Shown one piece after another: positions 413-64,000 of a stretch of 64,000 nt of DNA. The DNA comes from Zetaproteobacteria bacterium CG_4_9_14_3_um_filter_54_145 (GTDB taxonomy: Bacteria; Pseudomonadota; Zetaproteobacteria; Mariprofundales; Mariprofundaceae): positions 1 to 64,000 of the forward strand of contig PFXI01000073.1 of assembly GCA_002791575.1 (NCBI GenBank). The letters run 5' to 3'. Below the pieces are notes generated by a model, which was not told where the DNA came from, searched no databases, and was given only the letters and a program-made list of their open reading frames with translations. The first letter of the stretch is position 1. The number at the start of each line of letters is the position of its first letter. Position numbers and translations under genes: made by a program.

Positions 413-1474
413 CTATAGTCGGCTGGAGCGCTGCCGGAGCAGGTGATCGGCCAGTACCAGTGCCAGCTGCGCCTCGGCAATCGGCACCGCACGAATGCCG
501 ACACAGGGATCATGCCGCCCCTTGGTAACAATATCTGTTTCATTGCCGTGGATATCCACCGTCGGTCGCGACTTCAGAATCGATGAGGTGGGCTTGAGCG
601 CCATGCGTGCGCGCACGGTATCGCCATTGGAGATACCGCCCAGAATACCGCCGGCATGGTTGCTGGTGAATCCGCTGGCGCGCATGCTGTCGCCAAACTG
701 CGAGCCGCGGGCTTCGATACAGGCAAAACCGTCACCGATCTCGACAGCCTTGACGGCCGGAATATTCATCAGCGCCTTGGCGATATCGGCATCCAGTCGA
801 TCGAATACCGGCTCGCCGAGCCCGGGAATCATGCCGTGCGCTTCCACGGTCACAGCTGCACCGATCGAGTCGCCCTCTTTGCGCAGGCCGTCCATAAAGG
901 CAGCCATGGCTACAGCGGCTTCGGCATCGGGACAGAAAAACGGGTTGTTGGCAATCTCTGCGGCATCAAAGCGCGCAGGGTCAACCCTGACCGGGCCTAT
1001 CTGATCCACCCAACCGATCACCGAAATATCGCTTGCAGCCAGAAACTTTCTGGCAATGGCACCTGCGGCCACACGCATGGCTGTCTCACGGGCAGATGAG
1101 CGGCCACCGCCGCGATAATCGCGCCGGCCATACTTTTCAAAATAGGTAAAATCGGCATGACCCGGACGGAATTTATCCTTGATCTCGGAGTAGTCCTTGC
1201 TGCGCTGATCGGTGTTGCGGATCAGCAAACCGATCGGACAACCGGTGGTCACCCCTTCAAATACGCCGGAGAGAATTTCAACCTCATCCGATTCGCGTCG
1301 CTGGGTTGTATATTTCGACTGTCCCGGTTTGCGCCGGTCCAGGTCCGGCTGAATATCGGCCTCGCTTAAGGCAAGGCCTGCCGGGCAGCCGTCGACAATG
1401 GCCACCAGCGCCGCACCGTGCGACTCCCCTGCTGTTGAAACGCGGAATATCTGACCGCTGCTAGAGCCTGGCAC
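413..1474 (-). CDS. aroC: Chorismate synthase
   Basis: [35 protein letters not shown] and [14 protein letters not shown] motifs; full length. Confidence 0.97.
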
Positions 1475-60611: not shown

Positions 60612-61040
60612 CTACATATCCAGCTCGAAATCCTGCAAGGCGAGCAGATCGGCTTCCAGCTGCTTGTCCCAGCTGGCCTTGTCCCAGATTTCGAACGTTT
60701 CACCGGTACCGGCAAAGTGCACGATCCGCGATAGTGCGGCATGTTCCCTGAGTACTCCGGCCAGCAGCACCCTGCCCTGTTTATCCGGCGAAAAGCTCTG
60801 CGAGGGTGTGATCACCGCGCGGATAAAGTTACGCTTGATATTGGCCGGCATATCCTTGATCGCAGCCTGCAAACGATTCCACTCCCTGGTCGGGTAGGCA
60901 ATCAGGCATGGCGTATTATGGGAGCGGGTAATGATAATTTTACCGTCGGCATGACAGCTGTTCAATACATCACGGAACGAAGCGGGGATGCTGACGCGTC
61001 CCTTGTCATCCATGTTATTGCTGAATTCGCCTTGAAACAT
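60612..61040 (-). CDS. mraZ: Transcriptional regulator MraZ
   Basis: MFQGEFSNNMDDKGRVSIPASFRDVL; SPDKQGRVLLAGVLREHAALS. Confidence 0.95.
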   Translation of the reverse strand: MFQGEFSNNMDDKGRVSIPASFRDVLNSCHADGKIIITRSHNTPCLIAYPTREWNRLQAAIKDMPANIKRNFIRAVITPSQSFSPDKQGRVLLAGVLREHAALSRIVHFAGTGETFEIWDKASWDKQLEADLLALQDFELDM

Positions 61041-61080
61041 ACGTTCCCGACCCTCGCCCGCTTCCGTGGCAGGACTTGTT

Positions 61081-61133
61081 ACCCACAAATCCCCACTTAA
61101 CCCCAATAGTGTCCACCGATCCACATCTGTCAA
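61081..61133 (-). promoter_or_regulatory. mra promoter with three MraZ boxes
   Basis: Minus strand: TTGACA (61133-61128), then TGGGGTTAAG TGGGGATTTG TGGGT at exact 10-bp period (61105, 61095, 61085), just upstream of mraZ. Confidence 0.75.
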
Positions 61134-61287
61134 CCCCTGTAAATACAATATAATTAAAGGATGAGGCGTTTCAGCACGCATGTGCCACTTCCACAACCGT
61201 GGCTAACTCGGCACCAATAAATCACAATTTCATGCGGCCTTGTCCGAAAAAAATGAGTGCATACGTTGACGTTGAGCCTCGCAGAGA

Positions 61288-61342
61288 TTGACCAATCCGC
61301 CGCAACCGTTGTAAAACTGGTTCGCCGTGGGGGAATGTGGGT
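61288..61342 (+). promoter_or_regulatory. Second MraZ-like operator/promoter upstream of the WYL regulator
   Basis: Plus strand: TTGACC (61288), TGTAAA (61310), then TGGTTCGCCG TGGGGGAATG TGGGT with 10-bp period (61318, 61328, 61338). Confidence 0.45.
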
Positions 61343-61464
61343 AAGATCTCCGCCAGATCCCGGCCTGAACAGACGTCAGCACCTTCACCGTCGAACTATT
61401 CATTCATGCCCTGATACGACACAATAAGTCGCATGGACGAATACCACTCAATGAGGAGATCCGC

Positions 61465-62463
61465 ATGAGCGAAACCCTGATGCGCCAATGGCAGATGCTA
61501 AAAATGATTCCGCGCCACCCATCCAAGGTTTCACCCGATGAGTTGGTACATCGACTCGCAGAGTCGGGATTCAACGTTTATGCGCGCAAGATTCAACGCG
61601 ATCTGGTTTTTCTCTCGGAGTTATTTCCCATTGACTGCGATAAGCGCAACAAGCCCTATGGCTGGTACTGGTCAACCGATGTCCACGCCATGGATGTGCC
61701 CGGCATGGGCTCGCACACAGCTCTGGCATTTTTCCTGGCCGAGCAACATTTGGCACCCCTGCTCCCGAACAGTACCTCGCGGCAACTACAGCCTCATTTT
61801 AAAACAGCAGCAAAGGTTCAGGATAGCACCCATTCCGGGAAAGCAGGCTGGCGGGACAAGGTGCGGGTCCTGCATTCCGGGCCTGATCTGCAAACACCTG
61901 CTATCGACCCTGATGTGCAATATCAGGTTTATGACGCCCTGCTGCACAACCGAAAATTACAGGTTCAATACGTCCCAAAACAGGAACAGGATCCCAAACA
62001 ATATGAGATCAATCCGCTGGGACTGGTATTCAAGGATAGCATGTCTTATCTCGTCTGTTCGATGTGGGATTATGCCGATATTCGTCTGCTAACACTGCAC
62101 CGCATGGTAGAAGCCAAGGCGCTGGGTATTCCGGCCCGCTCGCCGGAGGGCTTTGATCTGGACAGCTACATTGCCTCAGGCGAACTCCGTTTTGCCGTGG
62201 GCGGAGACATCAAGCTTAAGGCGCTGATCTCAAGCAACCTTGCATTTCATCTGGGTGAACGGCCGCTATCCGATGACCAAACCATTGAGGGGCAGGAGGA
62301 TGATCTCATGCTGCTTCATGCCACAGTTCAGGACACCAATGAATTGCGCTGGTGGCTGCTGGCCTTCGGTGATCAGGTAGAAATTCTTAAGCCGGTTGAA
62401 CTAAGAGAGCAATTCGCTGAAATAGCATCAAACATGAACGACAGGTATAACTCGCCAGAATAA
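61465..62463 (+). CDS. WYL-domain transcriptional regulator
   Basis: N-terminal HTH-like region (VSPDELVHRLAESGFNVYARKIQRDLVFLSELFPI); INPLGLVFKDSMSYLVCSMWDYADIRLLTLHRMVEAKAL WYL-type core. Confidence 0.85.
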   Translation: MSETLMRQWQMLKMIPRHPSKVSPDELVHRLAESGFNVYARKIQRDLVFLSELFPIDCDKRNKPYGWYWSTDVHAMDVPGMGSHTALAFFLAEQHLAPLLPNSTSRQLQPHFKTAAKVQDSTHSGKAGWRDKVRVLHSGPDLQTPAIDPDVQYQVYDALLHNRKLQVQYVPKQEQDPKQYEINPLGLVFKDSMSYLVCSMWDYADIRLLTLHRMVEAKALGIPARSPEGFDLDSYIASGELRFAVGGDIKLKALISSNLAFHLGERPLSDDQTIEGQEDDLMLLHATVQDTNELRWWLLAFGDQVEILKPVELREQFAEIASNMNDRYNSPE

Positions 62464-62486
62464 TTATTTTAGCTGCTCCCGCCCCA

Positions 62487-62658
62487 TTAGCCATCCCGCC
62501 TGCGCAGAAAGGCTGGCACGACAAACGTTTCATCATTGCAGTCGATATTGCTGCATGGCTTTGACTCAGCGGTCGCCCTCATCGCTACCACCGTCACGCT
62601 GATCTCATCCCCCGCCTCCTGATCGTAAAGCATACCGCAGATAATATTGGCCCCCTCA
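62487..62658 (-). pseudogene. C-terminal fragment of a second ftsZ
   Basis: EGANIICGMLYDQEAGDEISVTVVA…NDETFVVPAFLRRRDG* matches the C-terminal part of the window's own FtsZ (DANIICGMVYDQDAGEEIRVTVVA…NDDEFAVPTFLRRQAD) with a shortened linker; homology stops abruptly near 62658. Confidence 0.8.
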
Positions 62659-63507
62659 CAGGGCAATCGCATTAAAATCATCGGCGGCCGCACAGGCATG
62701 GGAAAAAGTACCTTGGCCATCAATCTCGCCACCAATGCCGCTACCAGTACAGACAAATACTCAGTTGCGCTGATTTCAGCTGGTTTGACCGCTCGACAAA
62801 TCAGCATGCGCATGATGGCGGCAGCCGCCCGCGTGGAGCTCAATTCACTGCGCAAAGGCACGCTCAAAGGGGAGGACTGGCATAAGCTGGCTGAATTCAG
62901 CGGACAACTGACTGAAGCAAATATGATCATCGCAGACACTCCTGATTCACTGGCCACCATTCAGCTCATGTGCCGTCATCTTAAGCACGAGACGCAAGGG
63001 CTGGATTTGGTCTTCATTGATGATTTACAGTCGCTGGCTGAACGCATCGGGATCAAACAGACTGTTCATGAAACATCTGCAATGACTCAGGCGTTAAAAT
63101 CCATGGCCGTAGAGCTGGATGTTCCGGTTGTTGTCACATCACAGCTCAAACCCACATTGGAGGCCCGTACAGACAAACGCCCCTGCATAAACGACCTCTG
63201 CTGTGTCTCAGCGATTGAACAAACTGCCGATGTCATTTTCCTGCTGTATCGTGAAGAGGTTTATCATCAGCAAGCGGATCATGAAGGTGACGCTGAAATC
63301 ATTATTGCCAAGCAATGCTATGGCGAACTGACGCGGGCAAGGCTTTTATTCAATGGAAAGTTCAGCCGATTCGATGAACTCGATACTGTTGATCCCGTGA
63401 AACAGGCTCTGGATGATGCGTACCGCAAACGTGATGAGTCCATCTTCGCGGCAATGGCGAATGATCAGAATGGTGACATCGACATCAGCCCTCACGCCGA
63501 GGATTAA
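62647..63507 (+). CDS. Truncated DnaB-like RecA-fold protein (C-terminal domain only; possible pseudogene)
   Basis: IKIIGGRTGMGKSTLAINLATNAA, VALISAGLTARQISMRM, LDLVFIDDLQSLAE, SAIEQTADVIFLLYREEVYH, FNGKFSRFDELD align with the DnaB C-terminal domain; N-terminal domain absent; TTG start lies inside the ftsZ fragment. Confidence 0.8.
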   Translation: MAPSQGNRIKIIGGRTGMGKSTLAINLATNAATSTDKYSVALISAGLTARQISMRMMAAAARVELNSLRKGTLKGEDWHKLAEFSGQLTEANMIIADTPDSLATIQLMCRHLKHETQGLDLVFIDDLQSLAERIGIKQTVHETSAMTQALKSMAVELDVPVVVTSQLKPTLEARTDKRPCINDLCCVSAIEQTADVIFLLYREEVYHQQADHEGDAEIIIAKQCYGELTRARLLFNGKFSRFDELDTVDPVKQALDDAYRKRDESIFAAMANDQNGDIDISPHAED

Positions 63508-63704
63508 ACCGAACCCGCACACAAACTAAACTCAATATTCACTACCAACTTTTGTATCAGCTATCCCCTGCACAGCACTTTGAGTAACCTGAAAAACTTG
63601 CTGTCATTCGAAAGCTCAAGCCGCCTTAACATCATAATGTGGTTTTTATCCTTCTCATGCGTACGCTTTGGCGGATAATTTCAAGGTTTACCGGGTGGCA
63701 ACGT

Positions 63705-64000
63705 ATGTTCTGGAAAGAGAAAGCAATGAGCGAAATGAGTGATGATGAGTGGGAGTCGCTGTGCGACGGCTGCGGTCGCTGCTGCGTATGGAAGTTCGAG
63801 GATGAAGATACCGCCGAGATCCTCTACACCGACATCCGCTGTCAGCAATTCAATGAATCAACCTGCCGCTGCACCGATTATCCGCAACGCACGACCATTG
63901 AACCGGAATGCATGGACATCCGTGCTCTGGAGGAGAAGCAGTTCGCCTGGCTACCCGAGAGTTGCGCCTACCGTCTGTTGCATGAAGGCAAGCCACTGTT
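63705..64000 (+). CDS. ycgN: YcgN/UPF0260 family cysteine-cluster protein (truncated by window end)
   Basis: MFWKEKAMSEMSDDEWESLCDGCGRCCVWKFEDEDTAEI…TCRCTDYPQRTTIEPECMDI…FAWLPESCAYRLLHEGKPL. Confidence 0.88.
   Translation, partial: MFWKEKAMSEMSDDEWESLCDGCGRCCVWKFEDEDTAEILYTDIRCQQFNESTCRCTDYPQRTTIEPECMDIRALEEKQFAWLPESCAYRLLHEGKPL

Follow-up and report, generated by a model that had tools for sequence, protein, structure and literature searches.

The mraZ upstream region of Zetaproteobacteria probably contains, in addition to the operator at the mra promoter, an auxiliary MraZ operator that faces away from mraZ, and on sequence comparison this second site would both support mra autorepression and repress the gene lying outward of it. 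We examined a stretch of 64,000 nucleotides (hereafter the window) together with mraZ loci of related genomes; the outward site is more widely conserved than the sequence of one window could reveal, and the inverted pair of MraZ-type operators is the notable point of the analysis. The features around the two arrays are as follows.

60612-61040, minus strand: mraZ, 142 aa, matching PF02381 and the NCBIfam MraZ models.
61082-61115, minus strand: primary mra operator, with TGG boxes at 61113, 61103, 61093 and 61083.
61105-61133, minus strand: mra promoter as read from the sequence, TTGACA (61128-61133), N17, ACTATT (61105-61110).
61288-61317, plus strand: TTGACC-N18-TAAAAC, containing the -35-like hexamer of the original prediction; not conserved, chance level.
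61318-61341, plus strand: putative outward MraZ-type operator, with TGG boxes at 61318, 61328 and 61338 and a 10-bp period.
61342-61347, plus strand: TAAGAT, likely -10 element of an outward promoter, abutting the last box; TAnnnT in those genomes of the same genus that have the CxxCxxCC gene adjacent.

The outward array reads TGGTTCGCCG TGGGGGAATG TGGGTAA on the plus strand and faces away from the mra operator (61082-61115, minus strand), about 200 bp from the mra boxes, with the start of a WYL gene at 61465 lying beyond TAAGAT. The original prediction of a second MraZ-like site on the plus strand, built of TGG boxes at 10-bp intervals, is thus borne out; its count of three boxes per array holds for the outward site, whereas at mra four boxes are in register. 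With its TGG boxes the outward array shows the make-up of an MraZ operator, namely at least two direct repeats with a GTG or TGGG core and a 10-bp period, and the outward sites of relatives comprise two boxes. The three-box pattern TGGN7TGGGGN5TGGG had three exact matches in the 64-kb window compared to 0.03 expected from shuffled sequence, two of them overlapping at mra and one at the outward site, and no further exact match was present anywhere in the 2.85-Mb genome. In 92-94% of genomes, a sigma-70 -10 element precedes the penultimate primary box by 15-16 bp, so that the primary array closely follows the -10 of its own promoter, a position that the outward array does not share; the primary layout is that of known MraZ operators (compared with PMC7761207 and PMC5282649).

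To assess conservation, we collected the DNA upstream of mraZ from 68 relatives as well as from the window itself, 68 of these regions being long enough for use, and defined an outward pair as TGG-N7-TGGG or TGGG-N6-TGG located 105-345 bp from mraZ. Such a pair was present in 48 of the 68 Zetaproteobacterial regions, compared to 1 of 68 on the other strand over the same interval and 4.2 in dinucleotide shuffles, and the strict form TGGG-N6-TGGG was found in 37 of 68, compared to 1 on the control strand and 0.7 in shuffles. The outward array therefore lies beside mraZ and is conserved with it (48/68 vs 1/68). The site was missing throughout one genus (g6; 15 genomes, G021-G036), without obvious compensation, and in four scattered genomes outside it; in g6 a gene starts close to the mra promoter, and its product reads like a response regulator. 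In one genome (G066, contig C46, locus L081) the outward site was found 783 bp out, with about 600 bp of extra DNA between the two operators that apparently represents an insertion; at this locus the last primary box is TTGG and not TGGG. A further genome with fragmentary mraZ matches, G043, which is not among the 68, carries the inverted operator pair on contigs C189 (379-394, minus strand; 535-550, plus strand) and C312.

Outside Zetaproteobacteria, the outward pair occurred at background frequency, both in 20 other Pseudomonadota (2/20) and at mraZ loci of other groups (9/68 vs 8/68 on the control strand), and the primary array was often present in both sets. At three Lachnospiraceae-type Firmicute mraZ loci (L181, L223 and L225), the opposite strand carries TGGGGGATTGTGG at a distance of 137-148 bp from mraZ, which may be an inverted arrangement of independent origin. 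Away from mraZ loci, the strict motif TGGGN2AN2GTGGGTA was not in excess across 78 genomes (13 off-locus matches vs 46 for the reversed control, both counted by hand from the match table). We thus rejected a wider MraZ regulon for want of any off-locus excess of the strict motif, and judged by that motif the MraZ regulon is the mra locus itself.

Comparison with the nearest relative (G049) showed 95% identity (54/57) over the primary array and its promoter and 94% identity (29/31) over the outward array and its -10 element, compared to 70% (135/193) for the DNA between the two operators. A search for a further shared motif between the operators returned enrichment of some 6-mers (TGGTTT, TATTTA and GGCACA). 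The original prediction had placed the outward boxes, like those at mra, relative to a -35-like hexamer, and TTGACC at 61288 with TAAAAC at 61312 does resemble the mra promoter in geometry, but the likeness is not kept among relatives: a survey of 48 genomes for promoters at this offset gave 3 scoring 7 bits or more vs 2.6 expected, and 3 scoring 8.5 bits or more vs 1.0 expected, which is close to chance. The nearest relative has TTGATA at the TTGACC site and no -10 element there. A conserved outward sigma-70 promoter of mra-like geometry was therefore rejected, since none was found across genomes.

A different -10 element fared better. In the genus of the window, all 14 genomes with an adjacent gene for a CxxCxxCC protein have a TAnnnT hexamer directly next to the last box, compared to 0 of 6 genomes without that neighbour (P = 2.6e-5, a value to be read as a guide only, the genomes being related); over all genera the corresponding counts were 14 of 16 and 1 of 32. 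An outward promoter with a TAnnnT -10 element thus looks real in this genus. Absence of the CxxCxxCC gene from this place is accompanied by absence of the hexamer, but the boxes stay. The persistence of the boxes after loss of the hexamer is our main argument that they serve something besides the outward promoter, for which the mra promoter is the obvious candidate.

This bears on the strongest alternative, in which the outward site acts as an operator only for the divergent gene (normally the CxxCxxCC gene, here the WYL gene) and plays no role for mraZ itself. In 14 same-genus relatives, a CxxCxxCC gene (PF03692) lies behind the outward site, usually with its start 28-29 nt after the last box, and both this short distance (about 28 nt to the start codon) and the abutting -10 element in all 14 agree with a dedicated operator. 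Set against this, the site persists with unrelated neighbours or with no evident divergent gene, while the -10 element decays, and CxxCxxCC genes located elsewhere are without the site. The other neighbours behind it are yceD, obgE, nhaA and a pfkB-type gene, and several further genomes have an upstream gene, kdsB-like or otherwise, that points at mraZ, and no evident divergent gene; we take matches to PF02348, PF01018 and PF06965 to denote kdsB, obgE and nhaA, respectively. Among CxxCxxCC genes away from mraZ, none of 20 had TGGG-N6-TGGG within 260 bp, and the eight from the same genus lacked any TGG-N7-TGG; a weaker TGGG-N6-TGG was seen at three relocated copies (G076, G070 and G022), all from other genera. 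An operator moving with the CxxCxxCC gene was rejected on the absence of TGGG-N6-TGGG from the relocated copies, and on these counts the outward site is one that goes with mraZ, the neighbour being incidental. We accordingly regard a role confined to the divergent gene as unlikely.

Binding of the outward boxes by another protein, or their retention for another reason with an incidental likeness to an MraZ array, appears improbable. TGGG words are short, and mycoplasma MraZ overlaps in vitro with another factor on GTG-repeat motifs (PMC5282649), both of which speak for this explanation; the box and the 10-bp period are nevertheless the same as in the primary array, the enrichment is strand-specific at 48 to 1, and the motif shows no excess away from mraZ loci.

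The original prediction went further and proposed that MraZ may also control the WYL gene, linking cell division control to a WYL regulator. The DNA beyond the outward -10 element contains the following features.

61348-63704, no strand assigned: segment at a position where the nearest relative has 23 bp (blastn blocks 61043-61347 and 63705 onward).
61465-62463, plus strand: WYL-domain protein, 332 aa, in the inserted segment (PF13280 and PF25583).
62647-63507, plus strand: DnaB C-terminal-domain protein, 286 aa, in the inserted segment (PF03796).
63705-64000, plus strand: first part of the gene that normally follows the operator in this genus, encoding the CxxCxxCC protein (PF03692); it continues beyond the window (match 63705-64142).

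Compared with the nearest relative, the segment carrying the WYL and DnaB-like genes (2.36 kb) is bounded precisely by TAAGAT, the -10 element at the operator, on one side and by the CxxCxxCC start codon on the other. The simplest reading of the 2.36-kb difference is an insertion in the window genome, which would make the operator older than the WYL gene at the mra locus; no direct repeats of at least 6 bases were found at the ends of the insertion in the 50 bases searched at each. Because the segment sits just after the -10 element, the WYL gene would now be the outward gene, and since TAAGAT is retained, it may be transcribed from this inherited promoter. The WYL protein has both a WYL and a WCX domain (PF13280 and PF25583, above cut-off), and its residues 1-150 gave no Pfam match. 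The DnaB-like protein consists of little beyond the DnaB C-terminal helicase domain, lacks the DnaB N-terminal domain and weakly matches the defence model mad8.

WYL relatives were found in 22 of 78 genomes, none of them elsewhere directly behind the operator. At other positions, 23 WYL copies have an intact 5' end; TGGG-N6-TGGG was absent within 250 bp of all of them, and one (L022) was preceded by the weaker TGGG-N6-TGG. The TGGG periodicity, which the prediction would have retained ahead of the WYL gene in relatives, is thus lost at WYL copies and kept in relatives without WYL at the mra locus. The genes upstream of WYL orthologues in relatives are varied (L013, L032, L020, L021, L023 and others), and several of these loci share a short conserved stretch whose end lies immediately ahead of the WYL start codon; some of the upstream proteins look like nucleases, which suggests mobile or defence-type cargo. 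A dedicated link from division control to WYL is very improbable: the operator lies directly before WYL in the window genome and the inherited TAAGAT is kept, but this is one genome, WYL copies elsewhere are without the site, and WYL sits within inserted DNA next to an operator that is older than the insertion. We therefore rejected WYL-MraZ as a conserved circuit. What stands of the proposal is an operator of MraZ form, conserved with mraZ and placed directly before WYL in this one genome, and MraZ control of WYL would at best be a by-product of one insertion.

Under the auxiliary-operator reading, MraZ, as an oligomeric ring that recognizes GTGG/TGGG repeats spaced every 10 bp, would occupy both arrays, the primary one immediately after the mra -10 element and the inverted one further upstream, the spacing between the two ranging from 85 to 275 bp across genomes. 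The second array would most likely strengthen or sharpen mra autorepression, perhaps through higher local MraZ occupancy or through bridging of the two arrays. In the genus of the window, MraZ would also occlude the overlapping outward promoter and so repress the gene behind it, normally the CxxCxxCC gene and in the window genome the WYL gene. That MraZ in Zetaproteobacteria bridges the two inverted arrays and loops the mra promoter region, the outward arm being able to capture genes arriving next to it, is a tentative possibility that we think somewhat doubtful. Helical phasing, which bridging predicts, is weak. The fit of the spacing to a 10.5-bp helical repeat gave P = 0.045 with the period fixed and P = 0.11 when it was scanned over 10-11 bp, and spacing contrasts between nearest relatives gave P = 0.08 for all and P = 0.02 within the same genus, with a further peak near 11.5 bp. 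Phasing as proof of looping was rejected; R was about 0.5 near 10.2-10.5 bp for distinct, unclustered spacings, and the signal weakened after related genomes were collapsed. A literature search on MraZ looping or MraZ-DNA structures returned nothing usable, and PDB entries titled MraZ include 9qlr, 9sx6, 9sz7, 9qlg and 9r4j.

MraZ is widespread, and the purpose of its autorepression is unsettled. Conservation of an additional array in inverted orientation across a bacterial class suggests that the autoregulatory switch is more elaborate, and the Zetaproteobacteria offer a natural series in which evolution has varied both spacing and neighbour. If looping is true, a cell-division regulator of wide distribution, for which a single array has been described to date, would have a two-operator switch. 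The WYL case also urges caution, in that an operator before a newly inserted gene does not put that gene in a conserved regulon.

Auxiliary operators are familiar from the looping repressors of lac and gal and from lambda CI, and the mra region resembles these systems in that one oligomeric DNA-binding protein would have a pair of operators around a promoter, at distances compatible with loop formation. It differs from them in that the mra arrays are direct repeats in opposite orientation, and in that the helical phasing that looping would predict is weak here. The likeness to MraZ autoregulatory operators of E. coli, Burkholderia cenocepacia and Mollicutes is closer, these being likewise direct repeats with a GTG/TGGG core and a 10-bp period. 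MraZ sites are described as GTG-core repeats, and that of B. cenocepacia consists of four repeats of 7 nt, separated by spacers of 3 nt and located downstream of the -10 element, as in E. coli (PMC7761207); the Mollicutes core site is (AAAGTGKN3)3, with binding described for an octamer (PMC5282649). In B. cenocepacia and E. coli the mra -10 element is immediately followed by the array (PMC7761207), as is the case for the primary array here. Whereas the described MraZ operators form a single array at mraZ (PMC7761207, PMC5282649), the Zetaproteobacteria have a second, inverted array 85-275 bp upstream, class-wide.
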